Below, piece after piece: positions 5,749-38,943 of a stretch of 54,919 nucleotides of DNA. The notes under the pieces were generated by a model. The model worked only from the letters and a program-made list of their open reading frames with translations. It was not told where the DNA came from and did not search any database. A program made the position numbers and the translations under genes. Source of the DNA: a virus; IMG/VR virus record IMGVR_UViG_3300029915_000036, positions 1 to 54,919 of that record. One strand, 5' to 3'. Position 1 is the first letter of the stretch. The number at the start of each line of letters is the position of its first letter.

Positions 5749-7515
5749 TTACTTCACGTTCCAGCCGGTGCCCGTGTAGGTGAACACGAACGACCCATAG
5801 TTGGTGCTGATGACCTTGTTAGACGCGCCACCGATCAACCCGGACGCCGGAACAACCGTGGTGTTGTATGTGCCCGCGTTGCCGAGACCATCGATGACCG
5901 TCAGCGTCTGTCCTGTCGGCGGCGATGTCATCAGCGTCAACGTCGTGGCGGCCCCCGCCGCATTCATGGAGCCGAAGCCCGATGGCGCCGTGTAAGTCCA
6001 TGATCCGCTGCTGAAGTGTGCCGCAAAGGTGTCGCCTGACTGCGCGAATTGAAGGCCAGGCACCAGCGGTGATGCGTAGACGCCGGCGGGAATGGCCAAG
6101 CCGCCGGCGTTTGTCGCCGGGTTGGCGGTGCCGCTGTTGTTCCAGTTGCCGTTGTTCACCCGCCCCCACATCATGTGGTGGGTGAGATCAATGGCCCAGC
6201 ACAGCACGTTGCCCGTGGTCCACGTCGCCCAGGTGCCGTACGAGAAGTTGCCGCCGTTGACCACGCCGCCACCGTATGCCCACTGCACGGTATCGCTCGT
6301 GCTGCCCAGGTAGGCGCCGTTGGCAGTGCTGGAGGATGTGTTGCCGAGGCCGGTGGCAGCTCCGTCTGTCGCGGAGTAGGGGGTGGGCACGACCTCATAA
6401 TAATAGAGGCCGCTCGATACGCCGTTGTTGGCGAACGCCTCGGTATTCGTCGCCGCCAGGGTGCTGGCGGCGCTGAGGCCCAGGTTGCCAAGCACGATGG
6501 CTGAGTTTTTCTGTGTCGGTGACCATTGCTGCGCGCCGGTCTTGGCGAGAATGATCGTGCTTTCGCTGCCCTGCTCGGTCACGGGTCCGGCCGTGGTGAT
6601 CAGCCGCGTGGACGGCGGGGCGCCAGTGACGTAGTTAACGTAAAAGTAGTTGGTCAGCGCCGATCCGGCATTCTGTTTCACCTCGTCGCCCTGGCCAAAC
6701 CCGTTCCACCATTCAGACCCGGTCAGAAAGCCGATGCCAACAAGATACTTGAGCATTTCGCCGATATCGACCGTGCCGATCAGCTCGTCCGTGTAGCCGG
6801 ACGGGTAAAACACCAGATCGGGAATGGCGCCGACACCCTCCGCGAAATTCCAGGTTATGCCCGTCGTCGCTGAGGTGAACGATCCGATCGGGACCAGAAG
6901 AACCAGGAAGCTGCTTTGCACGAACGAAGGCGTGTGCAGCAGTATTTCGACTTCGTAGATGTTGTTTGCGTTGTTGCCGGCCGTCGATGTCAGGAACTGA
7001 TCGTCAATCACATCGAAGTTGGCGGTATCGCCGCCGAGCGTGATCGAATGGGTTTCCTGTAGCGTGACGATGTTGTTGATCTGTGACGGCGTGACGGGGA
7101 TCGTCGGCACCGTGCCGTCATAATCCCCGTAGTCGATTGCCAGGAAGTTGCGAATGCCGCCCGACCAGGTGGGAAGGCTCCAGACAGTGTTGGCCGTGCC
7201 GGGAAACAGCGCGGGATTGACCGTCATGCTCTCGGTGTACGTGGCCCCGCTCAGCCCGAACGGTGCCAGATAGGCGGTGTATTTTCCTGAGTTGTAGTTT
7301 GTGCTGTCAGGGATAACCACGCCGGTCAGGGATGTGAGCCATGCCGCCGCGGTCTGTGTGGTGCCTGCGCTGGTGGTGATGTTGCCAAGGCTCAGGTTGA
7401 CGCCGGCCAGGATGCTTGCCGCCGGCCCCCCGCTCTGCGGCCCGCGCTGCGCCACTGCGGGCGATGCGGCGACAAGACACAGGGCGGCGGCTGCGACAGC
7501 GTGCTTCATGGGCAT
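5749..7515 (-). CDS. Secreted protein with C-terminal SPRY-like domain
   Basis: A start at 7515 (or ATG 7509, two codons on) gives a clear Sec signal peptide: Lys, a hydrophobic core (AVAAAALCLVAAS), then PAVAQ cleavage. The open frame extends upstream into the helicase gene, which is unlikely to be coding. The first 370 residues of the mature protein look like an all-beta domain with many aromatic and Asn/Gly turns (EWWNGFGQGDEVKQNAG), compatible with a glucanase or lectin fold but with no motif I can name. The last 220 residues resemble a SPRY-type beta sandwich (GLYYYEV, CWAIDLTHHMMWGRVNNGNW), similar to the C-terminus of the 30221-34405 protein. Likely an exported carbohydrate-binding protein. 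Confidence 0.65.
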   Translation of the reverse strand: MPMKHAVAAAALCLVAASPAVAQRGPQSGGPAASILAGVNLSLGNITTSAGTTQTAAAWLTSLTGVVIPDSTNYNSGKYTAYLAPFGLSGATYTESMTVNPALFPGTANTVWSLPTWSGGIRNFLAIDYGDYDGTVPTIPVTPSQINNIVTLQETHSITLGGDTANFDVIDDQFLTSTAGNNANNIYEVEILLHTPSFVQSSFLVLLVPIGSFTSATTGITWNFAEGVGAIPDLVFYPSGYTDELIGTVDIGEMLKYLVGIGFLTGSEWWNGFGQGDEVKQNAGSALTNYFYVNYVTGAPPSTRLITTAGPVTEQGSESTIILAKTGAQQWSPTQKNSAIVLGNLGLSAASTLAATNTEAFANNGVSSGLYYYEVVPTPYSATDGAATGLGNTSSSTANGAYLGSTSDTVQWAYGGGVVNGGNFSYGTWATWTTGNVLCWAIDLTHHMMWGRVNNGNWNNSGTANPATNAGGLAIPAGVYASPLVPGLQFAQSGDTFAAHFSSGSWTYTAPSGFGSMNAAGAATTLTLMTSPPTGQTLTVIDGLGNAGTYNTTVVPASGLIGGASNKVISTNYGSFVFTYTGTGWNVK

Positions 7516-7537
7516 TTCATTTAATGGCAGATCCAGG

Positions 7538-12235: not shown

Positions 12236-13174
12236 ATGTGGAAGATTTCAATCGCCGTGATCGGCTTGCTCTGTGCCGGGGAGGGCGCGGCGCTGGCGCA
12301 GAGCTGCACGGCGCCGGCGGTGGCGCCGCCGATCGCTCAGGCGGTGGGGTATGTGGTTAACACGTTTTCCACCGGGCCATTCACGACCACGAACACCGAT
12401 ACCGGACTGACCTACGCCAAAGGCTACCAGTGGTATGGCTTCAACTTCTTCGGTGTGACCCCGACATTTGCCAACAACACCATCAATGCCTCGGACGGCT
12501 CGATCACCGCCGGCCAGGGCGGGGATGGTTACAACTCGAACGTGGCCACGGCCGGCTACATCGCGACCGCGCCGGGATACGTTGGCACGGCGTTTGGAGG
12601 CGGCGCCTATGTGCAGGCGATCGTCAAATTCAACGTGGCATCAGCCGACATATCAAACGGGTGGCCGTCCTTCTGGGCTAACGCCATGGAGGAGTACCTG
12701 GGGACAGCCCAGTGGCCGGGGCAGGCCACTGGCTACAACAACTTCATCGAGGCGGATCTGCTAGAGCATTTTCTGGGCGCCTACGGCACGATAAACCAGT
12801 ATCAGGCGACGCTGATCAACTGGTACGGCATTCCGGCCAACCCGACGCCGCATATCACACAGTTTGTAGACCCCAGCGTACCTGCAGCAAACTTCTCCAG
12901 CTATAATACTGTGGCTATGCTTTGGGTTCCGGCCACGGCGACTACAAGTGGATACGTGAATTACTACTGGAACGGAAGTGTTGTACAGTCCATCAGCTAC
13001 ACACAGTACCAGACATCCGACACGCCGCCGCTGACCAACAGCACGCCCTGGGCGTATGGCGTGATGGACGTTAATCACTTCGTCCTGCAATTCGGCTCGA
13101 ACAACCAATATCCGATCACCGTTTACTCGGTTCAGGTCTGGCAGGCTAACAGCCTGTCTAACATGCACAACTAG
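12236..13174 (+). CDS. Secreted GH16-like (concanavalin-fold) enzyme
   Basis: ATG at 12236 follows gcggggtttcc, nearly the same initiation context as the Gp157-like gene. The first 22 residues are a signal peptide (SIAVIGLLCAG ... ALAQ). The 290-residue mature part is beta-rich. Residues 142-151 (GWPSFWANAM) and 172-177 (EADLLE) match the substrate-cleft Trp region and the ExDxxE catalytic motif of GH16 beta-glucanases, in which the two Glu act as nucleophile and acid/base. It probably cuts a beta-linked polysaccharide outside the cytoplasm. Substrate cannot be deduced. It lies in the early rightward operon, not with the tail genes. Confidence 0.6.
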   Translation: MWKISIAVIGLLCAGEGAALAQSCTAPAVAPPIAQAVGYVVNTFSTGPFTTTNTDTGLTYAKGYQWYGFNFFGVTPTFANNTINASDGSITAGQGGDGYNSNVATAGYIATAPGYVGTAFGGGAYVQAIVKFNVASADISNGWPSFWANAMEEYLGTAQWPGQATGYNNFIEADLLEHFLGAYGTINQYQATLINWYGIPANPTPHITQFVDPSVPAANFSSYNTVAMLWVPATATTSGYVNYYWNGSVVQSISYTQYQTSDTPPLTNSTPWAYGVMDVNHFVLQFGSNNQYPITVYSVQVWQANSLSNMHN

Positions 13175-13181: not shown

Positions 13182-13874
13182 ATGGGAAAATACACCTCGG
13201 CGGTGGCGATCTTCGCTGCCCTCTCCACACCCGCGTTCGCGTGGACGAACACCAACTACGGCCACGGCAACCAGATCGTTGACGGCGGCCCTGGAGCGCA
13301 GTCCAACAGCTATCAGCAGCAGCACCAGACCGCTACGGGCGGGGCTGGAGGAGCTGGGGGCAGTGCCAGCGGCGGCAGCGCTGCGGGCGGATCGGCGGCC
13401 TCCAGCGCCACGGGCGGCGCCGCCTCAGCCGGCAGTTCTCTGTCAGGCGTGGGTAACACCACCATCAACGCCAGAAGCGCCCCGAGCATGGGCCTGCCGT
13501 CGATCGGCGGGGGCGGGTTCGACTGTCCCGTTGTGGGGTTCGGCGCCGTTGGTGCCGGGTTAGGCGGGGGCGGCGGGATCGGCCCGACCTGGATCAGCAA
13601 GTCTTGCAACAACCGCAAGGTGACCGAAATGCTCTACGGGCTGTTTGGCCCCGGTGTGGCGCGTGAATTCGCCATCGCCAATATCGATGGTGTCGCCGCC
13701 GCCGTCGCTGCCGCCAGCCAAACGAATGTGGTGGTTGTCGAGGCAATGCCCGTGCCGCCGGCGCCGCCCGGCGGCTGGGTTGGGCACTGCGATCACGTGG
13801 GGGCTGACGGCTACTGCTCCGCCGCCCCGGTCGTGCATCACAAGCCGCAGCACAAGGTCAAGTGCGTTAAGTAA
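13182..13874 (+). CDS. Secreted Gly/Ala/Ser-rich protein
   Basis: A 230-residue protein with a clear signal peptide (SAVAIFAALSTPAFA). Residues 35-95 are low-complexity Gly/Ala/Ser. A conserved-looking region follows (GFDCPVVGFGAVGAG, then SKSCNNRKVTEMLYGLFGPG) and the end has Cys and His residues (GHCDHVGADGYC). The two early Cys may form a disulfide, which fits export. No family is recognised. It starts 7 bases after the GH16-like gene, so the two are likely co-translated; its stop overlaps the convergent endolysin stop. Confidence 0.6.
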   Translation: MGKYTSAVAIFAALSTPAFAWTNTNYGHGNQIVDGGPGAQSNSYQQQHQTATGGAGGAGGSASGGSAAGGSAASSATGGAASAGSSLSGVGNTTINARSAPSMGLPSIGGGGFDCPVVGFGAVGAGLGGGGGIGPTWISKSCNNRKVTEMLYGLFGPGVAREFAIANIDGVAAAVAAASQTNVVVVEAMPVPPAPPGGWVGHCDHVGADGYCSAAPVVHHKPQHKVKCVK

Positions 13875-14396: not shown

Positions 14397-16250
14397 CTAC
14401 TGAACGAGGGTGTTGAGGATACCGACAAGCATGCTGGTGATGATGGCGTGCCCCAGATCATTGGGATGGATCTGGTCGGAATAGTAATACGTCAGATTGG
14501 TGTTGGCCCCTGCCGGCCCGATCTGGGGGTTGGCGGCGATATCGCAGATCGCGACAGCCCCCGCCGCCAGCGCGCCAGCGCGGATCAGGCTGTTGTAGAT
14601 GATGCGGAACGGCTCGACGCTGTTCCTGGGCAGCATCGTCATCACAATAACCTTCCATCCCGTCGCGGCTGCGGCGGCGATGTAAGCCTGACAGTATCCC
14701 CACGTCGTCACCGCCGCCGCCCCAGCGGCGGCATCGTTGGTGCCGCCCAGCAGCACCAGGAAGTTCTGCCCTGCGGCGGCGTTGTACAGCGGGGCAATGA
14801 TGGTCGGGTAGTTGGTTTGCAGGGTCTGCATGGTCTGCCCTGACACGCCGGTATTGTAGGCCCGCAACGGCATTGGCGCCTGCTCGGGAACCAGGGACGA
14901 GAAGCCGAACCAGCCGAGGCCGTTGACGCCCACCGTCATGCTGTCGCCGTCAAACAGGATGGTGCTGGCGATGTACTGCGGCGCCAGGCCGAACGTGTTG
15001 TAGCAGGAGCCGGCAACCGCTGTGCGCATCGCCGCGGTCAGGCCGTAGCCGTAGACCATGACCGCGAGCAGATCGCCGTTGAGCTGATTGCCGGTGGCTA
15101 CCGCACTGTTGCCGATCAGACCGCCGGTGATGGTCTGCGTGCTGGTGTTGGTGAAAGCAGTCCCGTTGCTTTCGTTGATCCACAGCGAGGCGCCGCCGGC
15201 GCCGCTAAGCGATGTGCCGATGAAGACGCTCGGCTCGTGATCGCCCGGCTGGAGGGCCGAGACGTTGGTATCGGTGGTGAAGTCGGCGCCGGCGGCGCCC
15301 GCCAGGATGTTGGCGGAGAAATACAGGCCCGCCTGATGCGATGTGCCAGCCTCAACCAGCGTGGCATTCAACGCCCGGCTTGAGGTGAGCCGGCCGACTG
15401 CCACCAGGGCCAGCGCCGGGTGCGTGAGCGACACGCCGATTGGCATAGTCAGAGACTTGACCACCGTGCTCTGCTGACCGTCAAAACAGAGGCTCATGTG
15501 GCCGTTTATGCTGTTGCGGTAGATCCACGGCATGTTGGCCACCGTCGCCTGTGTGGCGTCGTAGCCGTTGCCGCTTTGGTCGTACCAGGTGGTGACCTGG
15601 GCCGCGAGTCCGGCGCCCGTGGCGCTGGAGAGGTAGAGGCTCAGCGTGGCAACATCGAGCAGTCCCGCGCTGGTAAAACCAACGTTGAACTGAAAATTGT
15701 CGTACTGGCGGTTAACCTTGATGCAGTTGCCGCCATAGGATTTCCGCAGCAGCACCATGCCATAACAGGCCACCGGCGCGGTCGAGAGCATGTCGCCCGG
15801 CAGCGCCAGGAAGGGAAACTCGGTCACCGCCCACACCGCCTGCCCGGCAGTGTTTGAGGTGTTGGTGTAGGCAATGTTGGTGGCGGTGTTCAGCCAGAGC
15901 GCGCCAACCGGGTAGCCGTGCGCCACGTCATCGAGGGGGCCGGGGTTGCGGGTTGCCGCTCCGCGGAACCCGCCGCCGAGGTTGAGCGGCGCCATAACGG
16001 TGCGTATCCAGCGCCCGACCGAGACGCCGGTGACCTGAAAAACGCTGGCGCCGTTGTCAGCGAGCGTTGAGGTGGCATTCCAGTAATAAGCCCCCGCGCC
16101 AGCGTCACCGGGAGCATCGATGCCAACGCAGTAGACCAGCGAGTTGGCCGGCGCGTTACTTAGCGTGCGCAAGGTCGGCGCGAGGAAGCCGCCCTGGATG
16201 AAGCCGGACGGTGAGGCTGTGAACCCGGTGGAGTACGCGGGAAGCGCCAT
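14397..16250 (-). CDS. Tail spike: AbfB/LamG-like module plus SGNH hydrolase
   Basis: A 617-residue protein without signal peptide. The N-terminal 130 residues look like a spike head-binding and linker region (QGGFLAPTLRTLSNAPANSL, GRWIRTV). Residues about 165-420 resemble an AbfB-catalytic or LamG-like sandwich (VLLRKSYGGNCIKVNR, VTTWYDQSGNGYDATQA). Residues about 430-617 are an SGNH esterase: FDGDSMTVG with the nucleophile Ser near 437, GGTND near 502-506, and DQIHPND with Asp 592 and His 595. Such enzymes remove acetyl groups from surface polysaccharides during adsorption. Its start overlaps the holin stop, placing it between holin and endolysin. Confidence 0.75.
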   Translation of the reverse strand: MALPAYSTGFTASPSGFIQGGFLAPTLRTLSNAPANSLVYCVGIDAPGDAGAGAYYWNATSTLADNGASVFQVTGVSVGRWIRTVMAPLNLGGGFRGAATRNPGPLDDVAHGYPVGALWLNTATNIAYTNTSNTAGQAVWAVTEFPFLALPGDMLSTAPVACYGMVLLRKSYGGNCIKVNRQYDNFQFNVGFTSAGLLDVATLSLYLSSATGAGLAAQVTTWYDQSGNGYDATQATVANMPWIYRNSINGHMSLCFDGQQSTVVKSLTMPIGVSLTHPALALVAVGRLTSSRALNATLVEAGTSHQAGLYFSANILAGAAGADFTTDTNVSALQPGDHEPSVFIGTSLSGAGGASLWINESNGTAFTNTSTQTITGGLIGNSAVATGNQLNGDLLAVMVYGYGLTAAMRTAVAGSCYNTFGLAPQYIASTILFDGDSMTVGVNGLGWFGFSSLVPEQAPMPLRAYNTGVSGQTMQTLQTNYPTIIAPLYNAAAGQNFLVLLGGTNDAAAGAAAVTTWGYCQAYIAAAAATGWKVIVMTMLPRNSVEPFRIIYNSLIRAGALAAGAVAICDIAANPQIGPAGANTNLTYYYSDQIHPNDLGHAIITSMLVGILNTLVQ

Positions 16251-16465
16251 TACGCCGCCGGCGGCGTCGTAGACGGAATCCAGGCCGAGACGTAATGCAC
16301 GAAGGCCCCGAGCAGCACGGTCAGCGCCGCCGCCACCTCAGCCGGCATGGCGATGCCTTTGCTGGCCAGAAGCCAGGCAAAAACGACCACGGCTGCCGCC
16401 GCGCTGGAGTTGCTGGCGGCCGATGTAGAGAGCGTTGTGGTGTTTGTGTTCACGGAATCTGCCAT
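16250..16465 (-). CDS. Holin-like membrane protein
   Basis: Start at ATG 16465, which overlaps the last codons of the sedolisin gene. The 71-residue product has a polar Thr/Ser head, a first hydrophobic helix (AAAAVVVFAWLLASKGI), a short turn with Pro, a second helix (VAAALTVLLGAFVHYVSAWI) and a short tail, the layout of a class II phage holin. Holins form the inner-membrane lesion that times lysis. Its place beside the endolysin gene supports this. Confidence 0.65.
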   Translation of the reverse strand: MADSVNTNTTTLSTSAASNSSAAAAVVVFAWLLASKGIAMPAEVAAALTVLLGAFVHYVSAWIPSTTPPAA

Positions 16466-17829: not shown

Positions 17830-18132
17830 TTACGGTGATTTTGCGGGTGGCGGCGCAAAGCGGCTTGCGTGCGCTCCGTTGCCCTGCGGCTCGGTCGATG
17901 GCGCGGCATCTTCACTGCCCGCCGGCTTGCCCATTTGCGCCAGTTGCTCTTTCAGCTTCGTGTTCTCAGTTGTCAGTTCCGTGATCTTATCACGCTGCAT
18001 GTCGATCTGCCCCAGGGCAGAAGACAGGTTGGAAGCGAGAGAATTGGTAAACTGGAGCTGCGATGGGGTCTGGTCGGCGAAGGCTGGCGCCGAAAGCGCC
18101 AGCAGCGCGCCGAGGGCGATAACTTTCTTCAT
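17830..18132 (-). CDS. Periplasmic coiled-coil protein
   Basis: A 100-residue protein with a textbook signal peptide (MKKVIALGALLALSAPAFA), then a helix with heptad-like spacing (IDMQRDKITELTTENTKLKE) and a Pro-rich tail. It is preceded by aaggaccgaaccgt. A periplasmic coiled coil inside a lysis-gene cluster could act like a spanin component, but there is no lipobox Cys and no membrane anchor, so this is only a suggestion. Confidence 0.55.
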   Translation of the reverse strand: MKKVIALGALLALSAPAFADQTPSQLQFTNSLASNLSSALGQIDMQRDKITELTTENTKLKEQLAQMGKPAGSEDAAPSTEPQGNGAHASRFAPPPAKSP

Positions 18133-18240: not shown

Positions 18241-18837
18241 TCACGGGTTCACGGCGGCGGTCGTCTGTGGGGCAAAAATCGTCGCTATATCCGTAGAGGT
18301 AAACAGGCCGGATGACACCATTTCGGCCGAGACGGGGGCCAGCAACGATCCTTCGAGGTCGATCGGCCCGGCTACAAGGGCATTGTAATTCGTGTTGAAC
18401 GTGGAATGCGTGCCCCTGTAGGTGTTGAGGGCGTTGGTTTGCGCAGTCGTGAGGCGGCTTCCCACAAGCGCCACGGGCAGGATGTCGGGTAGTTGCGTGC
18501 CAACCTGGGCGCGCGTTTGCAGCGCCGCAATTTGGTTCGCCGTCAGATTGAAGCTCTTGCCGTTTGGCAGGGACAGGTGCTCGCCCTGATATACATCGCC
18601 CGAGTGAATCACGATGGCGCTATTCCCATTGACCAGCGTGATGATCGGGTAGTTGAACTGGGTGATCTGCGCCGGGTCACAACTCGGCTGGGGCGTGCAT
18701 TGCACCGCTTGCCATGCGCTTGCACTGAGGGCCTGTGCCGTCGCGAGGCTGGGGAAGCTGGCATATCGCAGGCTGGCGTCCTGGGCAAGCCCCGGAACGG
18801 TCAGCAGGACCAGGATGATTAGGGCGCGAATTAGCAT
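18241..18837 (-). CDS. Secreted hypothetical protein (198 aa)
   Basis: Start at ATG 18837, overlapping the last codons of the upstream gene. The first 19 residues form a signal peptide (IRALIILVLLTVPGLAQ). The mature part contains YPIITLVNGNSAIVIHSGD and SFNLTANQIAALQTRAQVG, suggesting a mixed alpha/beta domain. Two Cys (QCTPQPSCD) may form a disulfide. No family is assigned. One of a series of exported proteins in this region. Confidence 0.6.
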   Translation of the reverse strand: MLIRALIILVLLTVPGLAQDASLRYASFPSLATAQALSASAWQAVQCTPQPSCDPAQITQFNYPIITLVNGNSAIVIHSGDVYQGEHLSLPNGKSFNLTANQIAALQTRAQVGTQLPDILPVALVGSRLTTAQTNALNTYRGTHSTFNTNYNALVAGPIDLEGSLLAPVSAEMVSSGLFTSTDIATIFAPQTTAAVNP

Positions 18838-23258: not shown

Positions 23259-23265
23259 GGCAAAA

Positions 23266-23637
23266 CTACAAGCCCCCTCTTTGTCGCGTAATGACATCTA
23301 GCACGGTGAGGGGCAACACCGTGAGACATGTGTATGCCACGAGAACCCACCATCCGGGCGTTCCGTCCGCTTTCATTGCCAGCACGAAAGCGCCGATGAC
23401 GGCCAGCAGCAGGATCAGGCGGGATGCCAGTATTGCGCCGATCGCGGCCAGTGTGCCGACAAAGGCTCGGTCAGCTATCGGTTCACGGGCGGCCTGGGCC
23501 GGTGGCGTGGCAGTCTCTGGCGCGCGAGAGGGGGCGAACCCGGCAAACTCAGCCGGCGCCGTTGGCTGCTGACGAACCAGCGGCACCACGCCCTCCCTTT
23601 CCACTGATGGCGCGGCGGCGGGCTGCTGCAAAGGCAT
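23266..23637 (-). CDS. Membrane protein with Pro-rich head (123 aa)
   Basis: Start at ATG 23637, preceded by agaggaagaagaag. A 60-residue Pro/Ala-rich segment (PLQQPAAAPSVEREG onward) is followed by two hydrophobic helices (FVGTLAAIGAILASRLIL ... LAVIGAFVLAM and WWVLVAYTCLTVLPLTVL). Located between injection-protein genes and the spike, it may be a virion-associated or holin-like membrane protein. No family is assigned. Confidence 0.55.
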   Translation of the reverse strand: MPLQQPAAAPSVEREGVVPLVRQQPTAPAEFAGFAPSRAPETATPPAQAAREPIADRAFVGTLAAIGAILASRLILLLAVIGAFVLAMKADGTPGWWVLVAYTCLTVLPLTVLDVITRQRGGL

Positions 23638-29554: not shown

Positions 29555-29762
29555 CGCGCTTGCCCTTCGATACGGCGCGCAGAATATGATTCAGCCCCTC
29601 CTTCAACTGGCCGACGCCCTGATCGACAGCCCCCATATCCACGCCAGGAACCCTGCGGATATGTCCGATCATGGTTTCCACTTCCTGCGCCACGCGCCGG
29701 GCCTCATCCCCAAGGGTTTTCTGTGCAGCAATCCCCTTCGTTGCCCCTGCCAATGCGTCCAT
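29547..29762 (-). CDS. Small hypothetical protein (71 aa)
   Basis: Start at ATG 29762, overlapping the upstream stop (TAATG). The product begins MDALAGATKGIAAQKTLGD and is a two-helix, charged protein (ARRVAQEVETMIGHIRRVP, VGQLKEGLNHILRAV). An upstream in-frame start would lie inside the neighbour. Found here between GNAT and a conserved structural-region gene; function unknown. Confidence 0.5.
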   Translation of the reverse strand: MDALAGATKGIAAQKTLGDEARRVAQEVETMIGHIRRVPGVDMGAVDQGVGQLKEGLNHILRAVSKGKRDE

Positions 29763-30100
29763 TATGTCACCCCTAGCGCGGCCGAGGCCGTGTAGTGCTC
29801 CTGGTAGTGCAGATAGACCCACGCCTCCAGTTCGGAGCGGTTTTTGTAATCCACCTGCAAGAGATCACTCCCGCGCGTGCCGAGAACGCCGTTCATGTCG
29901 TCGTGCGCCTGCTGGTTGTAGTTGAGAAAGTTTTCAAATGCGGTCAGGTCGATCGGATCGATCGGGTAGAAATCCAGGTTCGTGCCGTACTTCGTCTGGA
30001 TCGCATTGCGGATCAACTGGTGCTGATCACGGTGGCTGAAACTCCAGATGCTCCAGTCCTCGCTGGATTGCGGCACAAACAGAAGATTGGCGAGCGGCAT
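29762..30100 (-). CDS. Conserved podovirus hypothetical protein
   Basis: A 112-residue protein with the sequence pattern LLFVPQSSEDWSIWSFSHRD ... HQLIRNAIQ ... LDFYPIDPIDLTAFENFL ... QQAHDDMNGVLG ... DLLQVDYKN, which I recognise as a recurrent unnamed phage protein near tail-end structural genes. His and Asp residues are regularly placed but no enzyme is implied. It starts at the stop of the preceding small gene. Confidence 0.65.
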   Translation of the reverse strand: MPLANLLFVPQSSEDWSIWSFSHRDQHQLIRNAIQTKYGTNLDFYPIDPIDLTAFENFLNYNQQAHDDMNGVLGTRGSDLLQVDYKNRSELEAWVYLHYQEHYTASAALGVT

Positions 30101-30309
30101 CAGCGCCGCCGGCGCTGATAGGCTGACACCTGGATGAAGCTCTGCTCGGCCTGAAGGGAGCGCGGATCAGTCTCCCCGCCGACCGCCGATTCCCCGCCCT
30201 GGTAGTTCACCAGGGTTTCGTCAGGAACCTGAGCAACCATTCCCTTGGGATTCTCGCCCCCAGCGAGAAATTTTACCCAGTTTTCCCGCAAGCCCGTGTG
30301 GTTCGCCAT
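30100..30309 (-). CDS. Small hypothetical protein (69 aa)
   Basis: ATG at 30309 is preceded by ggaggtgatg; an adjacent ATG at 30312 is possible. The product begins MANHTGLRENWVKFLAGGEN and ends in QRRRR. It overlaps the end of the large multi-enzyme gene by 89 bases and is coupled to the next gene by TGATG. No family is assigned. Confidence 0.55.
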   Translation of the reverse strand: MANHTGLRENWVKFLAGGENPKGMVAQVPDETLVNYQGGESAVGGETDPRSLQAEQSFIQVSAYQRRRR

Positions 30310-33300
30310 CATCACCTCCAAAACTCACGTTGTGAATATACCACGAGTTATCGTCTTCGGCAGATGGCTCGTCATCCTTCTCGCCAAGGATGAACAGTGC
30401 CGGATGGTATGAGCAGGCCGTGGGCGGCTGCCATGCGGCGAAGCCCGATGGCGTGGCAATGGCGAACGGCCCGGCCGCGTTGAGCGTGACCGTGGTGGTC
30501 AGATCCTGGGTGCCGAAATAGGGGAAGCAGGGGCAGGTGAGGCCGCTGAAGGACAGCCCGCCAGTGCCGGTGCCGGGGTTGGCGGTGCTGCTGTTGTTCC
30601 ACGTCCGCCCGGCTGCGCGCGTCTCGGGGGTGGTGATCCACAGGAGATCGGCGCCAAGGTCAGCACAAAGCGTGATGTAGTCGCCATTGGCAGCCGCCGC
30701 CACGGTGCCGCTGAGAAGCGTGACGCCGTTGAAAAACACACTCTGCGGCGTTCCGCCGGACGGGTAGAATGCGACGGCGTTGTTGTCGCGCCCTGGGGTG
30801 AAGCTGCCGGCCAGAACCTCGCTTGCATTGGCAAGGCCAAGAGATTCATCAACGGTCACGACCGATGCCATGACTTCGTAACAAACTTTGCCCGTGCTCT
30901 GCGAGAGCGTGGCCCGCGTGCCGCCGATGGCCGATCCGGTTCCGGTCGCCGTGAGGTTGTTGTTCGAGAGCGTGATGCTGGGCGAGGTATCGCCGGGGTT
31001 CCAGCTCACCACCGTTGATCCGCCGCCGCCACCGCCGCCACAGATCGAGCAGATGATCTGCCCGCGGTTGATGACGACGCTGTTGTTGATCGCCGTCTTC
31101 GTATCGGTGGTGTTGGTCAGAAGCTCCATGCCCCACCCAACGGCCGGGGGGTTGTTGCCGGACCACCACTGCTGCCAGCCCACCACATTAGGGGTGTATG
31201 TCTGGATTTGGCTGATCAGCGTGGATTCCAAAAAGGACACATCACCACCGCCGGTGTTGCCGCCAAGGTTGGAGCCGAATTCGGCGTACAACATCGGCTT
31301 CCCGTACGTCGACATGGTGTTGTAATCGCCCTGTGAATCGTTGCCGGGGTTGTCCGAATAGATATCCCACCCGACGATATCGGCGTAGGCCGCGCCGGGA
31401 TAAAGCGATGAATCACAGGTGCCGCCACGGCAAGCGTTCGGAGAAAAAATGAACGCCAGGTTGGTGAGCCCCTTCGTCTTGACCAGATAATCGTGCATAT
31501 ATTGAAATATCGCAATATTCTGCGCTGCCGTTATGCCGCTGCCGCCACCGCCGCAACAGCTCCCCGTGCCAAACCAAAACCAGTTTCCGTTGCTCTCGAT
31601 CAGGCTGCGGTACATCAGAATAATGCCGGCGTTCTGATAGTCCTGGAGCATCATCGCGAGTGCGTTCAGCTCTGCGTTGAAATTCGTGTTTGCCGTGGTG
31701 CCCGCTTGCACGACATCGCCCCAGCCGCCCGCCGGAACGCTTTGATCCGAGCCCCACAGGGCGCTGCCGTTGTCGGCTGGATTGTTCGGCCAGAAGTTCA
31801 TAATGAGCAATCCGCCGGCGTTCCAGTACGGAATGGCGTAGCTTTCGCAGTAATTGACAACGGTCGTGCCCTGCGCCGCATCGCAGCCGAGCATGGCTGG
31901 GTACTGGCCGGTGATGTTCTGAATAAGCGGAAAGGACGCATAGCCGTACGGGCTCGGCGGGCTGGAGCCGTTGTTTTCAGTGAACTGGCCAGAGAGGATG
32001 TGATTCCCCGCCAGGCTGTTCAGATATTTTATGAGGTTGGTGACCGAGTTTATCCCGCTCGGGCCGCTGGAGCTGGTGACCACGGCAAAGGAATTCGATG
32101 TTGTGGCAATGCCGGTGTTGTTGGCGTCCCTCACCGCAACGGTGTTGGCCGTGCTGGTGGCCTGCCCCGGCACGGTGAACATGAAGCTGCTTGTGGTGAC
32201 CGGCGATCCGTTCGGGAGCGCGGTCCAAGCGCCGCCGTTGACGCTGTATTGCAGCGTGGGGATCGTGGTAACGCCACTGATTGTCCCGCCCACGGTGAAG
32301 GACATGTTGGATTTCTGCTGTGCGATCGTGCCGACAGTGATTGTCTCGCCGCCGATTGTCGGCGCCGCGATGAGGGATGCCACCGATGTTCCGTAGGGCG
32401 ACATGACCGATGTCCCGTTGACGGTGAGGCTGTCGCAGCATGTGTAAGAGCTGTTCCAAACCCACGCGATAGAGCCGAAAGCGTTCGATCCGTTCGCGTA
32501 CGTCCCAACAGCGGTCACGACATTCTGCCCGTTCGCATCAATCGTCGTGCCATTGGTCGAATTGCCGTACTCGCCGATGAAAACCGGCATCACGCCGTCA
32601 GCGCTGGGGATGGTCTGTGCCGCCAGAATACCCGTCGCCTGATACTGGGTTGGCGACGAACAGCAGCTTGGGCTGTCGTAAGCGCTGCCCAGGAGGAAAT
32701 CGTTCACTGTCGCCTGCGTCGTGCTGTACCCGCTGGCAAATCCATAATAGTGCAGGTTCCAGACCACGCCTTTCATGGTCGAAAACACCGATGGCGTCAT
32801 TGGCAAGCCATAGGTCTGATAGGCGGTCTGGGTATAGGCGCCGACCGTGCCAGGATCGCCGCCGGACGGTTCCTCCAGCATAACGATCGTGTTGTTGCCG
32901 GTTCCGCGAATGGCGTTATAGGTCGCCTGCTCCCACGTCGCGAGGCCGGGCAAACTGATAGTGCCGCCCTGCGTCGAGCACGAGTCCGAAGTTGTGCCCG
33001 TCACGAATGACGGCTCGTTATTGGTGGTGAACCACACATAGGGGTTGTTGATGTAGTACGCCGCCATGCTGGCGTACCAGTTCGATTCCGTCGTCAGAAT
33101 CGAACCAGTGAATATGTCGCCGCAGCCGCCGCCGACGTTCCCGGCCGATGTGCCGTCTGTGAAAAAGTTCTGCCCGTTGCCGAAAAGGACCACGATGCCG
33201 GCCTGCGTCATCGTGTTGACGAATGCGGAATAGGTGCTGGGCGCGGCGTAAGAGAATGCGTAAACCTCGACAATCTTGGTTCCGGGAAAGAGGTTTGTTA

Positions 33301-34405
33301 CCTGCGACGCGCTCGTTATCGCGCCGATCTGGCCGTCACCAAAGCCAACGCCGTTCCCGACAAAGGTTGCTCCACCCGGCGTTTTGACGCTCCCGCTGCT
33401 GACGCTGAAATACCCCGCGGAGGACGCCTGCGAGAACAGGAAGCTGTTGATTGTGGTGTTCGTCCACACGGGGTTGCCGGACGAATCCGTGTCCTGATGC
33501 CCGCAGGTGGCACAAAGCGTGTAACGCATGGCGCTGGTGCCGGCCTGATTTGATGACGCGCTGGTGATTGCCGATGGGTACGACGAGTTGCCGGCCAGGG
33601 CCGTCCACATCGGATTATTCCACTCGGACGCGAGGCTGTTGGTGTCATTGGTGCCGGAAAACCACCACACCGGCACGGTCTTCATCTGTGTGGACTGCGC
33701 CGTGGTGACGGTGCTGCCGCCACAGCCGTTGATTTGCAGCACGCCAGCTTCCGATGCGCCGGCCGCGAACACGCGGCCGAGGTCGCCGGTGTAGGCGTTG
33801 TAGTGCTGCATGAAGTACTCGGCGCCGATGCCGCCGAGGCTGAACCCGTTGATGTAGATGCGCGTGGTGTCGATCGAGTATTGCGTTTCGAGGTAATTGA
33901 TCATCGCCAGCACGGCGAACGTGTTTGGCCCGGTGTCGCCCGAATAAACCGTCCCGCTGCCGGTGACGCCACTGTTGCACCACCCGCCCCAGTTCTCGAC
34001 CGCGCCCCCCGAAGTGTCGGTTGTCTGATCCGCGTATGGCACCGCGATAAAGGCCGGATAGGCTGTCAGGAAGGGAACGGCGTTGTAGTTCTGGGCCTCA
34101 TAGCCAGACCCCGTCGCATACAGCGCGTTGGTGTTCGATCCGTTGTACCAGGCGTTGCCCTCAGCTTGCGGGTGCAGCCAGATATAGAGCGGGTATTTGT
34201 ACGTCGTGCCGCTGTACTGGGCCGGCGGCAGAACGTTAAAATGAAACGGCTTGCCGGACGCGAGCGTGATCCCGGCAAAACTCTGATCGAAGGAGGTCCA
34301 CGTTTGCGTTGTGACGGTGCCGGTCAGCGGCGCCGGCACAGGCGGCAACGCAACGGCCTGAAACGATATGAAAATGAAGATGAGTGCGAGGAGGCGCCTG
34401 ATCAC
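30221..34405 (-). CDS. Secreted multi-enzyme: esterase + GH5-like + GH26-like + SPRY-like
   Basis: Start at GTG 34405, overlapping the previous stop and giving a signal sequence (RRLLALIFIFISFQAVA). The 1394 residues contain four modules. Residues 30-325: a CE1/PHB-depolymerase-like alpha/beta hydrolase with Ser189 (GFSLGG), Asp254 (GTND) and His303 (CGHQD). Residues 345-680: a GH5-type barrel with HYYGF at 552-556, acid/base Glu464 (NNEP) and nucleophile Glu612 (GEYG). Residues 690-780: an Ig-like linker. Residues 785-1115: a GH26-type barrel with SGQFT, acid/base Glu937 (ESNGNWFWFG) and nucleophile Glu1042 (AEFG); the His usually before the acid/base Glu is Ile. Residues 1130-1350: a SPRY-like sandwich. 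Likely degrades mixed cellulose/mannan-like matrix. The last 30 residues read into the next gene. Confidence 0.8.
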   Translation of the reverse strand: MIRRLLALIFIFISFQAVALPPVPAPLTGTVTTQTWTSFDQSFAGITLASGKPFHFNVLPPAQYSGTTYKYPLYIWLHPQAEGNAWYNGSNTNALYATGSGYEAQNYNAVPFLTAYPAFIAVPYADQTTDTSGGAVENWGGWCNSGVTGSGTVYSGDTGPNTFAVLAMINYLETQYSIDTTRIYINGFSLGGIGAEYFMQHYNAYTGDLGRVFAAGASEAGVLQINGCGGSTVTTAQSTQMKTVPVWWFSGTNDTNSLASEWNNPMWTALAGNSSYPSAITSASSNQAGTSAMRYTLCATCGHQDTDSSGNPVWTNTTINSFLFSQASSAGYFSVSSGSVKTPGGATFVGNGVGFGDGQIGAITSASQVTNLFPGTKIVEVYAFSYAAPSTYSAFVNTMTQAGIVVLFGNGQNFFTDGTSAGNVGGGCGDIFTGSILTTESNWYASMAAYYINNPYVWFTTNNEPSFVTGTTSDSCSTQGGTISLPGLATWEQATYNAIRGTGNNTIVMLEEPSGGDPGTVGAYTQTAYQTYGLPMTPSVFSTMKGVVWNLHYYGFASGYSTTQATVNDFLLGSAYDSPSCCSSPTQYQATGILAAQTIPSADGVMPVFIGEYGNSTNGTTIDANGQNVVTAVGTYANGSNAFGSIAWVWNSSYTCCDSLTVNGTSVMSPYGTSVASLIAAPTIGGETITVGTIAQQKSNMSFTVGGTISGVTTIPTLQYSVNGGAWTALPNGSPVTTSSFMFTVPGQATSTANTVAVRDANNTGIATTSNSFAVVTSSSGPSGINSVTNLIKYLNSLAGNHILSGQFTENNGSSPPSPYGYASFPLIQNITGQYPAMLGCDAAQGTTVVNYCESYAIPYWNAGGLLIMNFWPNNPADNGSALWGSDQSVPAGGWGDVVQAGTTANTNFNAELNALAMMLQDYQNAGIILMYRSLIESNGNWFWFGTGSCCGGGGSGITAAQNIAIFQYMHDYLVKTKGLTNLAFIFSPNACRGGTCDSSLYPGAAYADIVGWDIYSDNPGNDSQGDYNTMSTYGKPMLYAEFGSNLGGNTGGGDVSFLESTLISQIQTYTPNVVGWQQWWSGNNPPAVGWGMELLTNTTDTKTAINNSVVINRGQIICSICGGGGGGGSTVVSWNPGDTSPSITLSNNNLTATGTGSAIGGTRATLSQSTGKVCYEVMASVVTVDESLGLANASEVLAGSFTPGRDNNAVAFYPSGGTPQSVFFNGVTLLSGTVAAAANGDYITLCADLGADLLWITTPETRAAGRTWNNSSTANPGTGTGGLSFSGLTCPCFPYFGTQDLTTTVTLNAAGPFAIATPSGFAAWQPPTACSYHPALFILGEKDDEPSAEDDNSWYIHNVSFGGDDGEPHGLAGKLGKISRWGRESQGNGCSGS

Positions 34406-36405
34406 AGTGCGCTCCTGACGTAATTCACCTGCACCGCCGCCGAGCTGGGCGAGCCGGTAATCGCCGAGGTGACGACCGAAACCGGGTTGCCGCTGACGAT
34501 GGTGTTCGAGCCACATGTCGTCGTCATGGCGGTCCCGCTGCTGACAGTGATGCCGTTGCAGGTTGTGACATTCGCCCCGTTCACCTGGATTGCGATGTTG
34601 AACGCCGGTGAATTCGTCCCGCTTGTGAGGTAAGTCACACTCACGATCGAGCCCGTCCCCCAAGGCCAGGCCAGCGTCAGATAGTACGTGTTCGCCGAAA
34701 CCACGGTGTTGCTGTCCCAGTTCAGGGTGCCAACACCTTTCTCATTCCCGATCGATACCTGGCTGCCGACAAGAACCAGTGGAAGGCTGACGGTAAAGGC
34801 GCCACCGCCGGAAACCGTCAGGCAGTTCGCGCACGTGATCAGGCCGGCACCGCTGACGGCCACCGGCGCGGTCGCGGTCAGCGCGCCGCCGCCCGATGTC
34901 GTGACGCACGTAGCGCACGTGATGAGGCCCGCGGCACTGATCGCGGCGGGGGAGGTCGCAGTCAGCAACCCGCCGTTGGTCGTCAGCGCACATGTCGGGC
35001 AGGTGATCGTGCCCGTGGTGGTAATGGTGCCGCCGCTGATCGGGCTTGTCGTCGCAATGCTGCTGACCGAGCCCGTAGCCGTGCCAAACGGACCAACCGT
35101 GGTGCCGTTGATGCGCGCATACACGCCAACCGTCGTGGTCCACACATCACCATTGGTCGGGCTGGTTGGCGCGGCGCCCGCCGGCAGATTGAGGCCGGCT
35201 TGCGTCGTGGTGCTGGCGGCGGTGACCAGCTTGCCGGAACCTGTGAGGCCAACATAGGTGCCGGTGCCGGTGATCGCGGGGTTGCTGATCGTCTCGGTGG
35301 GCAGCGTCAGACCGGACGGCAACGTTGTTGCTTCCGAAGGGACGCCCGAGCCGCTGGTGACCAGCACGGCGTTGTTGACAACAGCCAGGCCGGTGACCGT
35401 GGTGCCGGACGCCGCATAGTAGGTAATGCTGTTGGCTGAGTTGGACGTGACCGTGCCGCTGCCGCCACCGCCGCTGCTGCACGCCGAGCCGCTGTCGACG
35501 AAGGCGCCGCCGCTGTTGATCTGCACACAGTCGCCGTTGGTGAACGCGCCGTTAGCAGTCGCCAGCTTCGAGCCGTTGCCCTGATTGGTCGTGGAGCCGC
35601 CGAGATAGATAGCCTGCCCGCCAATGGTGATCTGGGTCGTCGGGATCAGCGGCATGGCCTGCCACGATCCGGCGTTGTTCACGATGTAAAGGCAGCCCGT
35701 TCCCGTGCCGCTGCCCTGGCTGCCGTTCAGGCAGTTGCTGACAAAACCGAGCTGGCCTGAGTTTGAACTTGTAACGGTCGGCAAATTGCTCGACGCAGCG
35801 TAGTTGTTAACGGTGCCGATGAACGGCCCGATGGTCAGGCCGCCGGGAAGCGTGGTCGAGATCGAGGGCACCCCGGCGTTGCTGGTGACCAGCACGCCGC
35901 TGTTGGCCGTGGCGAGGCCGCTGACCACGTTGCCGTTAGCGGAATAGTAGGCGAGGTTATTGGCGGTGGACGTGTTGGCGCCGCCGCCGGTGCCGAACGG
36001 GCCGACCGTGGCGCCGTTGATGCGCGCGAACAGCCCCGTAGAGGTGGTCCAGAGGTCACCGTTCACCGGCGATGACGGCGCAACGCCCTGCGCCAGATTG
36101 ATATAAGCGCTGCCCGTGGTTGAGGCGGGGATCGAAAGCTTGCCGGCAAGGTTGACCACACCCAGCGACGATGCGCCGGTGACCGACAGCGTGGCAGCCG
36201 TCAGATTGTTGAACACGCCGACACCTTGGACTGTCGAGACGGGCGTCTGGACGGAATTGCCATTCTGCACGAGGTAAAGCGTTTCGGCGCCCGACAGCGG
36301 CAGATTGGCCGCCGGCAGTTGTGTTGCCTGCTGCGCCAGGGCGATGCGTGGCGCAAAGCCTGCCGCGAGCAGGGCGCAGAATAGCCAGGAAAGCCTGCGG
36401 TTCAT
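34402..36405 (-). CDS. Secreted tail-fibre-like protein
   Basis: ATG at 36405 (or GTG 36408) overlaps the previous stop. A signal peptide is present (RRLSWLFCALLAAGFAPRIA then LAQQ). The rest of the 667 residues is Gly/Ser/Thr/Asn-rich with repeated fibre-type phrases: NGDLWTTSTGLFARINGATV and its later copy NGDVWTTTVGVYARINGTTV, each followed by GPFGT, and repeated GLITCATC / GLITCANC units. These phrases are typical of phage fibre shafts and of fibre-attached G-rich regions. The C-terminal 110 residues look globular. Exported fibre-like protein; receptor unknown. Confidence 0.65.
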   Translation of the reverse strand: MNRRLSWLFCALLAAGFAPRIALAQQATQLPAANLPLSGAETLYLVQNGNSVQTPVSTVQGVGVFNNLTAATLSVTGASSLGVVNLAGKLSIPASTTGSAYINLAQGVAPSSPVNGDLWTTSTGLFARINGATVGPFGTGGGANTSTANNLAYYSANGNVVSGLATANSGVLVTSNAGVPSISTTLPGGLTIGPFIGTVNNYAASSNLPTVTSSNSGQLGFVSNCLNGSQGSGTGTGCLYIVNNAGSWQAMPLIPTTQITIGGQAIYLGGSTTNQGNGSKLATANGAFTNGDCVQINSGGAFVDSGSACSSGGGGSGTVTSNSANSITYYAASGTTVTGLAVVNNAVLVTSGSGVPSEATTLPSGLTLPTETISNPAITGTGTYVGLTGSGKLVTAASTTTQAGLNLPAGAAPTSPTNGDVWTTTVGVYARINGTTVGPFGTATGSVSSIATTSPISGGTITTTGTITCPTCALTTNGGLLTATSPAAISAAGLITCATCVTTSGGGALTATAPVAVSGAGLITCANCLTVSGGGAFTVSLPLVLVGSQVSIGNEKGVGTLNWDSNTVVSANTYYLTLAWPWGTGSIVSVTYLTSGTNSPAFNIAIQVNGANVTTCNGITVSSGTAMTTTCGSNTIVSGNPVSVVTSAITGSPSSAAVQVNYVRSAL

Positions 36406-38141
36406 CACTGGAAGCCCTCGCCGGAAAACGGGTGGGTAGAGTCCGACGAGATGACCGACACCGCGCCAGTGCTCGGCGCCAGCGCGTAAGTGACCCCCGG
36501 CGATATGCAGGTTGTGCTGCCGGATGAGGTTGTGCCAGTCGCGGTGCCGATTTCGTTAATGCAAAGATTGATCGTGGCCGTTGTCGGGTTACTGATCCAG
36601 CCGCCGGCCGTCCGGTGCCCGGCAGTCAGGGCGGTGACGGCAGTGCCGCCGGTGGTGACCGTCGCCACATCAAGCGCCACCAGGGTAACCGAGCCGTAAT
36701 TGGTGCGCAGATTGCCATGCACATCCACCTGCAAGGCGGTCTGCTGGCCCGTCGTCGGCGCCGGTTGTGTCGAGTTGTACACGCCGCCGGCCAGCAGGGA
36801 ATTGCTCGCCGCGGTGCCGGCGGCAACGGTGCCGGTGACTGCTGTCTGGTTCGCCGCGGTGGCCGCACCCGTGGGCAGGGAGATCGTGCCGCTGACGTTG
36901 GTTACATTCCACGTGCCGGACTGAGTGACCCCGCCGATGACGTTGCTGCCGGCCGGGACCGCGGTTTCGAGGTTGACCTTGAGGTACTTCGAGGCGTCCA
37001 CCTGTAGCTGGTCCCAGGTGGTGCCGTTGAAGCCGTAAGCCCAGACAACCGAGGCGCCGTTGCTCGATGATGTCGCCACGCCGGATGTGGCGTTCGAGGT
37101 CGTGCCGCCCGAGCAGCCAACGATGCAGTTGACATCCAGATTGTGCGAGCCGTCCGCCGCGATATAGACCAGGTTGCCGCCGTTCGAGCCGCCCATGGCA
37201 AAGCCCGACGTTGGGAACGTGGTAGCGAATGTTGAGGTAATCCCGGCAACCACGTTGGTCTTGAGATTGCCGCTGGCATCAACCTGCAACGCGGCCTGCT
37301 GGCCGTTGGTCAGAGTGGGCGCTGACGAATTGTAGGCGGCGCCGGCGAGCTGCGACATGAGCGCTACCGTGCCGCCCATCACCGATCCCTGAACGGCTGC
37401 CTGATTGGCCGAAGTCGCGGCCCCCACGGGCAGAGAGACAATCCAGGTTCCCGACTGCGTCACCGCGCCGATGACGTTTGCCCCGACAGGAAGCGCTGTC
37501 TGGAGATTGACATCGAGGTTATGCGAGGCGTCGGCGCCGATGTAGACCATGTTGCCGCCGTTGGAGCCGCCGATCGCGGTGCCGGTCAGCGGGAAAGTCG
37601 CGCCGAACGCGGACGATGATCCGCCACCGCCGCCACTGCCCCCGGCAATGATGTTCACCTTGAGGTTTCCGGACGAATCAAGCTGAAGGGCGGTTTGTTG
37701 CCCGTTGGTCAGGACGGGGGCCACGAGGTTGTAAATGCCGCCCTGATACATGGACACCGCGGCGCCATTGGGCAGCGGAACGGCCCCGCTGATGTTGACG
37801 GACCACGGCGCTCCGGACTGGGTGACGGAGCCGATGACGTTGCCCCCGGCAGGCAGGGCGGTTTTCAGCGTGACGTTGAGATCGTTGAACGCATCAGCAC
37901 CAATGGGCACCATGTTGCCCCCGGCCGTCGCGCCGATCGCCAGTCCCGTTGTCGGGAAGGTGGCATTGAAGTTGGAGCCCGAAACCCCGCCGCCGGTGCC
38001 GACATTGGTGTAAAGATAACCCAGGCAGGTGTTCCACATGGCCGCGGTCCACACCTGCCCCCCGGTCACCGGCAGAGCGCACTGAGCGTGCGCGGCGATC
38101 GGCGATAGCAACAGAATAACCGCACAGAGCGCGCCGCGCAT
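36405..38141 (-). CDS. Secreted modular repeat protein
   Basis: ATG at 38141 overlaps the previous stop. Signal peptide: RGALCAVILLLSPIAAHAQ. The 578-residue protein is built from three copies of a module with FGATFPLTGTAIGGSNGGNM, DASHNLDVNLQTALPVGANV, IGAVTQSGTW and YNSSAPTLTNGQQAALQVDA, plus a C-terminal beta domain with paired Cys (LCINEIG ... TTCISPG). One module contains VNCIVGCSGG and WAYGFNGTTWDQLQVDAS, nearly identical to the 19948-20964 protein. Typical of modular fibre or surface proteins; the role of export is unknown. Confidence 0.65.
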   Translation of the reverse strand: MRGALCAVILLLSPIAAHAQCALPVTGGQVWTAAMWNTCLGYLYTNVGTGGGVSGSNFNATFPTTGLAIGATAGGNMVPIGADAFNDLNVTLKTALPAGGNVIGSVTQSGAPWSVNISGAVPLPNGAAVSMYQGGIYNLVAPVLTNGQQTALQLDSSGNLKVNIIAGGSGGGGGSSSAFGATFPLTGTAIGGSNGGNMVYIGADASHNLDVNLQTALPVGANVIGAVTQSGTWIVSLPVGAATSANQAAVQGSVMGGTVALMSQLAGAAYNSSAPTLTNGQQAALQVDASGNLKTNVVAGITSTFATTFPTSGFAMGGSNGGNLVYIAADGSHNLDVNCIVGCSGGTTSNATSGVATSSSNGASVVWAYGFNGTTWDQLQVDASKYLKVNLETAVPAGSNVIGGVTQSGTWNVTNVSGTISLPTGAATAANQTAVTGTVAAGTAASNSLLAGGVYNSTQPAPTTGQQTALQVDVHGNLRTNYGSVTLVALDVATVTTGGTAVTALTAGHRTAGGWISNPTTATINLCINEIGTATGTTSSGSTTCISPGVTYALAPSTGAVSVISSDSTHPFSGEGFQ

Positions 38142-38287
38142 CAGAACCTCCCGCTTCCGAATGCACTGACGCCGAAGACAAACCCGGCGTAGACAAACGT
38201 GTTGTTCGTTAGAAGGGGGTAATAAATTACCGCCAGCGCCGGGGTTGCCGCCATGACGACGATCAGGAACACAACGACTTTGCGCAT
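38141..38287 (-). CDS. Small exported protein (48 aa)
   Basis: ATG at 38287 and TGA overlapping the next ATG (TGATG). The product begins with a signal-like segment (RKVVVFLIVVMAATPALA) and continues IYYPLLTNNTFVYAGFVFG, ending GSGRF. Only about 28 residues would remain after cleavage, or the leader may stay as an anchor. Supported by composition and perfect coupling to both neighbours. Confidence 0.55.
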   Translation of the reverse strand: MRKVVVFLIVVMAATPALAVIYYPLLTNNTFVYAGFVFGVSAFGSGRF

Positions 38288-38943
38288 CAGAAGACCCCCT
38301 GTAAAAGCACCGGGCAGCCGGTGTTTTCCGTCATCAGGGCTTCCTGATACGGCGCGAGATCATTCCACTGAATAGTCGCCGAGCTGCCCAGGAGCGAGAG
38401 CGGGACGCCAACGAACATCAGCGATGCGCCGTTGACGTACTGAACATCGAGAAACTGCGTCTCGGAATCATAAACCGCCTGATAGATGTTGAAGGCCGGA
38501 TTCATGATCCCCACCAGAATCGTGTGTTTCTGGTCAGAAATCAGCGCACAGGGGAACTTGACCATCGGCGCCACGGTGACCCGGACGTTGCCCGTCGTCA
38601 GCAGCGGCTTGCCATTCTGCAACAGAATTGGGCAGTTACTCTTTTCCTGAACAAGCGCTTCCGGATAGGCCCGCAGAGTAACCCACGGCATGTACTGATG
38701 GCCGACAACCAGCGCCCGCGGAACGCCAACAAAGTAGTGCGCGCGGTTGCCAGGTCCAACCGGCTGGAAAGTAAGCCCCCCGGTTGTCGGATCGTAAAAC
38801 CCCTGCCCCGCCGAGGGGGCGCCCGTAACCGACACAGACAGGTTCTCGATGTTGTTCGAGACGGTGGGGCATGCCGTGTCACCCCACGCCGCCTTGCAGG
38901 TGGCGATGGAAAGCAGGCAAATCAGGAGCCGGATTACGATCAT
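38287..38943 (-). CDS. Secreted protein with two KTSC-like units
   Basis: Start at ATG 38943, overlapping the hub stop (ATGA). Signal peptide: VIRLLICLLSIATCKAAWG. Two similar segments follow: RAHYFVGVPRALVVGHQYMP ... NCPILLQNG and ASLMFVGVPLSLLGSSATIQ ... GCPVLLQG. Each begins like the KTSC pattern (strand, then Y/F-x-G-V-P and a helix), though the Lys-Thr-Ser-Cys signature itself is absent. Duplication of one unit seems likely. The Cys residues and export suggest a disulfide-stabilised surface protein. Function unknown. Confidence 0.5.
   Translation of the reverse strand: MIVIRLLICLLSIATCKAAWGDTACPTVSNNIENLSVSVTGAPSAGQGFYDPTTGGLTFQPVGPGNRAHYFVGVPRALVVGHQYMPWVTLRAYPEALVQEKSNCPILLQNGKPLLTTGNVRVTVAPMVKFPCALISDQKHTILVGIMNPAFNIYQAVYDSETQFLDVQYVNGASLMFVGVPLSLLGSSATIQWNDLAPYQEALMTENTGCPVLLQGVF

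Follow-up and report, generated by a model that had tools for sequence, protein, structure and literature searches.

An uncultivated phage encodes a set of tail-fibre-like and glycan-active proteins with predicted Sec leaders

The usual view places the action of phage structural genes in the cytoplasm and the virion. Why, then, would a phage equip a dozen proteins, several of them fibre-like or enzyme-like, with N-terminal leaders of the kind that Gram-negative hosts route through Sec and process with signal peptidase I? The question is raised by a linear IMG/VR virus record of 54,919 bp, the whole of which was analysed here and is referred to as the window. Matches to a major capsid protein (MCP; PHROG, 8.8e-22), DnaB, an ERF annealing protein and an SU10-type adaptor identify the window as a phage and rule out its being a plasmid or an integrative element (ICE) with T4SS genes; an endolysin and a GNAT protein were matched as well. 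The gene at 46869-48647 is read as the portal, with 26% identity to annotated portals of spring-water phages, and that at 52707-54914 (minus strand) was judged by eye to be a probable large terminase with an apparent intein (CLDQETEILTKAGWKRHDEVVVGDEA ... VTGNC), its PHROG matches being confined to the intein-like part or to intein-bearing families. Cultured relatives are remote, with MCP identities of 24-37% to two spring-water phages, Myxococcus phage Mx9 and Stenotrophomonas phage BUCT555. The features on which the argument turns are the following.

5749..7509, minus strand: 586-aa protein, predicted leader MKHAVAAAALCLVAASPAVA/Q, alternative start 7515
12236..13174, plus strand: 312-aa protein, predicted leader MWKISIAVIGLLCAGEGAALA/Q
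13182..13874, plus strand: 230-aa Gly/Ser-rich protein, predicted leader MGKYTSAVAIFAALSTPAFA/W
14397..16250, minus strand: SGNH-lipase tail protein, leaderless, internal control (Pfam Lipase_GDSL_2, PHROG tail fiber)
17830..18132, minus strand: 100-aa coiled-coil-like protein, predicted leader MKKVIALGALLALSAPAFA/D
18241..18837, minus strand: 198-aa protein, predicted leader MLIRALIILVLLTVPGLA/Q, no family match
18831..19946, minus strand: 371-aa protein, predicted leader MLRWLALLLLLTCPASA/Q, mature part with 12 Cys
19948..20964, minus strand: 338-aa FNGTTWDQLQ-domain protein, predicted leader (M)TRLIRLLTVFLFMGGVAHA/Q, TTG start overlapping the preceding stop
21630..23297, minus strand: tail spike, leaderless, internal control (PHROG EPS depolymerase and tail fiber matches)
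29762..30100, minus strand: small conserved gene, directly or closely behind the tail protein in relatives without the leader block
30221..34405, minus strand: 1394-aa enzyme, predicted leader MIRRLLALIFIFISFQAVA followed by PHB-depolymerase-like esterase, GH5 and GH26 domains
34402..36405, minus strand: 667-aa tail-fibre-like protein, predicted leader MNRRLSWLFCALLAAGFAPRIALA/QQ, N-terminal domain and NGDxWTT fibre modules
36405..38141, minus strand: 578-aa FNGTTWDQLQ-family repeat protein, predicted leader MRGALCAVILLLSPIAAHA/QC
38141..38287, minus strand: 48-aa protein, predicted leader MRKVVVFLIVVMAATPALA/V
38287..38943, minus strand: 218-aa protein with two KTSC-like repeats, predicted leader MIVIRLLICLLSIATCKAAWG/DTACP, supported by start overlap and homologues
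38940..41489, minus strand: tail/virion structural protein (PHROG virion structural and head closure matches)

A preliminary description had proposed that all twelve genes begin with a Sec/signal-peptidase-I-type leader, and this was borne out. A rule-based scorer (n-region charge, hydrophobic core and AxA-type site), which recovered 11 of 13 textbook Escherichia coli leaders while missing those of PhoA and BtuB, called a leader in 11 of the 12; the gene starting at 38943 escaped detection on account of a c-region Lys near the cleavage site, and its homologues in loci L008, L010 and L019 score well. A basic n-region, a hydrophobic core, an AxA-type site and a supported start are found throughout, in the twelfth gene by way of these homologues. 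All 12 starts are present in the sequence, ten on the minus strand (7515 or 7509, 18132, 18837, 19946, 20964, 34405, 36405, 38141, 38287 and 38943) and two on the plus strand (12236 and 13182), and most either overlap the preceding stop codon or sit behind a ribosome-binding site: the start at 38943 forms an ATGA overlap with the stop of the tail-protein gene, those at 38287 and 38141 lie in TGATG and that at 36405 in TGATGA, whereas the starts at 34405 (GTGA) and 20964 (TTGA) are preceded by CAGGAG and GGTGGAG, respectively. These stop-start overlaps, together with the retention of leaders in homologues, make starts downstream of the hydrophobic segments, one of the outcomes named beforehand as fatal to the proposal, unlikely. 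Two details had to be amended: the leader assigned to the start at 7515 stands, with 7509 (MKHAV...) as the likelier start, and the placement of the whole set in the tail region fails for the genes at 12236 and 13182, which follow the ERF recombinase gene on the opposite strand, outside the tail operon. The suspicion that the 38287 gene was a double count was rejected, this being a true 48-aa ORF conserved in relatives.

The enrichment of leaders in the window is real and beyond chance. Among window genes of at least 100 aa, 9 of 44 are leader-positive by the rule-based scorer, compared with 11 of 311 in ten stretches of named phages (p=2e-4) and 2 of 213 in relatives that lack the leader block described below (p=2.5e-6). 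As a false-positive yardstick, 5 of 361 genes were called in the block-less relatives when summed over the per-locus list, and 0-5% in lambda, P22, Mx9, BUCT555, Paso and ctz7E20, where the calls are mostly known lom, Rz and holin genes, including the known Lom and Rz leaders of lambda.

Five consecutive leader genes (38943 to 30221) form a block between the tail protein and the small conserved gene, and the tail protein gene is translationally coupled to the first of them (38287..38943). For these five genes, compared across three to four phages, the mature parts are 42-93% identical and the leaders 17-72%, with the switch in identity falling at the predicted cleavage site (A/DTxC, A/QC.LP and A/QQ.T.LP). 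Because the mature part is conserved, the leader is not, and the boundary coincides with the cleavage site, the comparison shows the predicted leaders to be under selection and probably functional. Random mutation of the leaders, up to the divergence observed and under a simple neutral model, left a leader in just 1-28% of runs per comparison, yet real homologues of all five genes retain one; taking one homologue (from L043) per gene, the product over the five genes is about 1.5e-6.

What the leaders are attached to is clearest for the 30221..34405 enzyme. Its Pfam matches are GH26 (2e-36) and GH5 (3e-12), the GH26 domain scoring 126 bits against a curated cutoff of 20.2 and matching the mannanase 7eet in the PDB at 2.4e-30, and its esterase domain matches an NCBIfam PHB-depolymerase-like family (2.8e-8). 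Both catalytic Glu motifs of GH26 are kept, RSLIESNGNWFWFG and MLYAEFG aligning with RPLHEMNGEWFWWG and GLVEVG of solved beta-mannanases. The likeness to GH26 beta-1,4-mannanases such as 7eet is limited to this catalytic domain with its two Glu motifs, since in the window it shares one leader-bearing polypeptide with GH5 and esterase modules, encoded within a phage tail operon. The L043 homologue comprises GH5, SGNH and GH26, the SGNH domain replacing the esterase; thus, an esterase domain separates leader and GH5 in the window but not in L043, and the N-terminal leader is kept in both. Of the roles that had been suggested for the exported proteins (coating the infected cell, degrading matrix or blocking superinfection), matrix or glycan degradation appears the best backed, because of the esterase-like, GH5 and GH26 domains with conserved catalytic motifs and the SGNH esterase in the homologue.

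Fibre-type modules were recognised in three of the leader-bearing proteins, namely that at 34402 (N-terminal domain and NGDxWTT) and those at 36405 and 19948 (FNGTTWDQ), the others giving no match. Leaderless phage proteins that begin MAD-QKISAMPAATTPLTGAELVPLVQGG (L163-L169) carry, at their very start, a homologue of the mature N-terminus of the 34402 protein (QQATQLPAANLPLSGAETLYLVQNG); hence, the leader occupies the place of Met-Ala-Asp in other phages. This domain resembles the tail fiber of ctpbd312, a collagen-like protein of Aeromonas phage ZPAH14 and a RefSeq virion structural protein of Bacteroides phage DAC15 (weak matches, E 0.08-1), and the NGDxWTT modules also occur in annotated tail fibres. 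Whereas these QKISAMP-type proteins, which share the N-terminal domain and NGDxWTT modules, have a Met a few residues ahead of the domain and no leader, the window's protein has one. None of the 12 is made as the leaderless precursor expected of a virion fibre, a form found in the tail spikes at 21630 and 14397, which share an N-terminal domain (33% over 86 aa). An S8/subtilase-type protease at 16450-17472 (minus strand), amid the tail genes, is leaderless as well.

The FNGTTWDQ domain was found in 23 distinct proteins in viral contigs, 21 of them with a leader (for L047 and L057 taken from a wider start window); the leaderless two (L104 and L114) lie in loci without leader genes and lack the C-x3-C pair. 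In the genus to which Bradyrhizobium sp. Tv2a-2 belongs, one genome of 249 has the domain, inside a phage region with a leader block, which, set beside its occurrence in many phages, indicates that the domain is phage-specific. This region (L079 7725-12451; NZ_AXAI01000008) is part of an isolate genome and carries a four-gene block.

The remaining leader-bearing proteins are less readily interpreted, and most yielded no function in Pfam, PHROG, PDB and NCBIfam searches. In the family of the 38287..38943 protein, four mature Cys are invariant in four homologues and the leader has diverged; its KTSC Pfam match is weak (E 0.0011) and below the cutoff. In L019, FGVSAFG.G.F, which in the window is the C-terminal motif of the 48-aa protein, is part of a fusion with the homologue of the 38287 gene. 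Tiny leader-bearing proteins like the 48-aa one (41-65 aa, with mature parts of ~20-45 residues) recur across blocks of unrelated phages (window 38141-38287; L066 9667-9792; L053 9192-9374; L055 11946-12113; L079 8650-8847). The EADLLE motif of the 12236..13174 protein recalls GH16 glucanases by eye, and no PDB match backs this assignment. AlphaFold models were too poor to use (pLDDT 58 for the 38287 family and 39 for the FNGTTWDQ protein). The overall Cys content of the predicted mature parts is weakly raised (1.43% versus 1.04%), and it is the conserved pairs alone that are informative.

Both the presence and the make-up of the block vary between relatives. Among relatives recruited by the MCP, it or its start stands behind the tail protein in L003, L005, L008, L010 and L019 and is absent in L011, L014, L015, L020, L026 and L033, where the tail protein is followed by small conserved genes and leader genes are few or none. 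A homologue of the window's 18831 gene lies within the five-gene block in L043/L044. In L009, a second cargo set precedes the portal gene (1025-5179), with two leader-bearing proteins, one glycosyl-hydrolase-like, and a leaderless SGNH protein on the opposite strand; the structural operon therefore has more than one insertion spot.

Leaders were also counted among neighbours of the module genes, in loci fetched for one of the two fibre modules and with the wider start window. Where the module gene has a leader, 57 of 259 neighbour genes are leader-positive, versus 7 of 163 where it does not (odds ratio 6.3, p = 2e-7); the count is conservative in that L127 (MFKFLAFVFAFFASFNADA/Q) was still scored as leaderless. 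These numbers show leader use to be a phage-wide state, shared by many unrelated uncultivated phages. Blocks occur in phages of differing types, including the podovirus-like G251 and the HK97-type siphophage G250, in which the block separates the head genes from those for tail tube, tape measure and tip protein, none of which has a leader (identities by eye), and includes two Tat-type leaders. The Tat-type leaders belong to two large leader-block proteins (L066 12307-13830 and 14840-18799), which start with canonical twin-arginine motifs, SRRxFL followed by a hydrophobic stretch (MKFSRRNFLLAGAA and MSVSRRNLLIGATA), which suggests that one phage may use Tat besides Sec targeting. A weaker twin-arginine motif is present in the SGNH protein of L010 (2489-3817), and a leader-bearing protein near the exported block of L055 (18503-19171) resembles, by eye, rhizobial Omp25-type outer-membrane proteins. 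The leader block is absent from five annotated fibre-module phages (Bradyrhizobium ppBjS10J-1, EBPR siphovirus 2, RHph_N65, ctKR88 and RHph_N3_19), the searches for relatives returned no cultured phage with a block, and the named fibre-module carriers examined were without one.

Taken as sequence evidence, these comparisons lend good support to the predicted export of a set of tail-fibre-like and glycan-active proteins, and it appears that the phage has the infected cell move this set out of the cytoplasm. The initial proposal of phage-directed export of many fibre-like and enzyme-like proteins thus gains from the comparative evidence, which extends it to many unrelated uncultivated phages, with export itself, its late timing, the site of action and the glycan role being what we infer. 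We lean towards a reading in which the Sec leaders work and the proteins form an accessory, non-virion set that acts on envelope and glycan before and at lysis. Late in infection, the extra proteins, built from tail-fibre and virion modules and polysaccharide-active enzymes, would be made together with the tail protein; host Sec would export them and signal peptidase I would remove the leaders; several may then be disulfide-stabilised in the periplasm; and, up to and during lysis, the set would act on the envelope and the glycan around it by binding and cutting polysaccharide, freeing progeny. That the set is most likely accessory follows from the window's own leaderless spike-like proteins and the leaderless adhesion candidates in G250. 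A counterpoint is that lysis would free cytoplasmic enzymes anyway, and the reason for export ahead of lysis can only be surmised. More tentatively, and with somewhat less than an even chance in our estimation, soil-type phages of different capsid types may re-target tail-fibre-family proteins, a Sec or Tat leader taking the place of the original N-terminus and yielding either an exported adhesin/hydrolase layer or virion fibres assembled outside the cytoplasm, a practice that would be widespread and previously unrecognised.

Assembly of virions outside the cytoplasm, with exported tail fibres or decorations folding through disulfides in the periplasm and binding particles during or after lysis, would account for several observations: in the 34402 protein, a domain that starts virion proteins in leaderless phages is kept right behind the leader, so that the protein could still join the virion; the block opens with a gene translationally coupled to that of the tail protein; and leaders are present on nearly all the large fibre-like genes of G251. 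We nevertheless regard it as unlikely, given that the window has leaderless spike-like proteins of its own, the block is missing in relatives sharing capsid, adaptor and tail genes, the HK97-type block phage encodes a tail tube, tape measure and tip of its own without leaders, and the esterase-GH5-GH26 protein is unlike a virion part.

The insertion-site behaviour of the block could instead point to ordinary cargo (morons or auxiliary metabolic genes, AMGs), that is, secreted host-type genes acquired singly for lysogenic conversion or carbon acquisition and clustered in an insertion-tolerant spot. The shuffling of genes between sites fits such an origin, as do the block in the phage region of a Bradyrhizobium isolate and the standing of GH5 as a classic AMG family of soil viruses (PMC6786970), but single pick-ups would not be expected to produce a phage-wide leader status or to involve a phage-specific domain such as FNGTTWDQ, and the overlaps of the block genes with one another and with the tail gene speak against promoters of their own, although such promoters may lie within coding sequence; we consider this origin distinctly improbable. 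It is very improbable indeed that the N-termini are membrane anchors, trimerisation helices or mis-called starts rather than cleaved leaders. The leaders are predicted ones and those of the 38943 and 12236 genes are imperfect, but the starts are fixed by stop-start overlaps and ribosome-binding sites, conservation begins right behind the AxA sites, and homologous domains occur without the hydrophobic segment.

The statement in the preliminary description that no phage system of this kind had been described agrees with our search of open-access full text, in which no earlier report of an exported set of phage tail parts was found, save single exported morons, e.g., lambda Lom. Lambda lom adjoins the tail gene J, directly behind it, and Lom, Bor and similar morons are likewise phage-encoded proteins with cleavable leaders; however, Lom and Bor are single host-derived envelope genes for lysogenic conversion, whereas the window has a dozen proteins of fibre-like and glycan-active type, some of them coupled to the late structural operon. 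Auxiliary glycoside hydrolases of soil viruses, a GH5 endomannanase (PMC6786970) and a chitosanase (PMC9485262), resemble the window's GH5/GH26 protein as glycan-active enzymes on uncultivated soil phages, but that protein is one member of an exported set; a text search of both papers returned no mention of signal peptides or secretion.

If our preferred reading of an accessory exported set is correct, infection would gain an extracellular phase, in which Sec, and in one phage apparently also Tat, exports a phage-wide set of fibre-like and glycan-active proteins, and soil-virome annotations such as "tail fibre" and "AMG" would read differently. It raises the testable question of whether these proteins are destined for the cell, the matrix or the virion, and the block in the phage region of the Bradyrhizobium isolate means that this question could be addressed in a culturable host.
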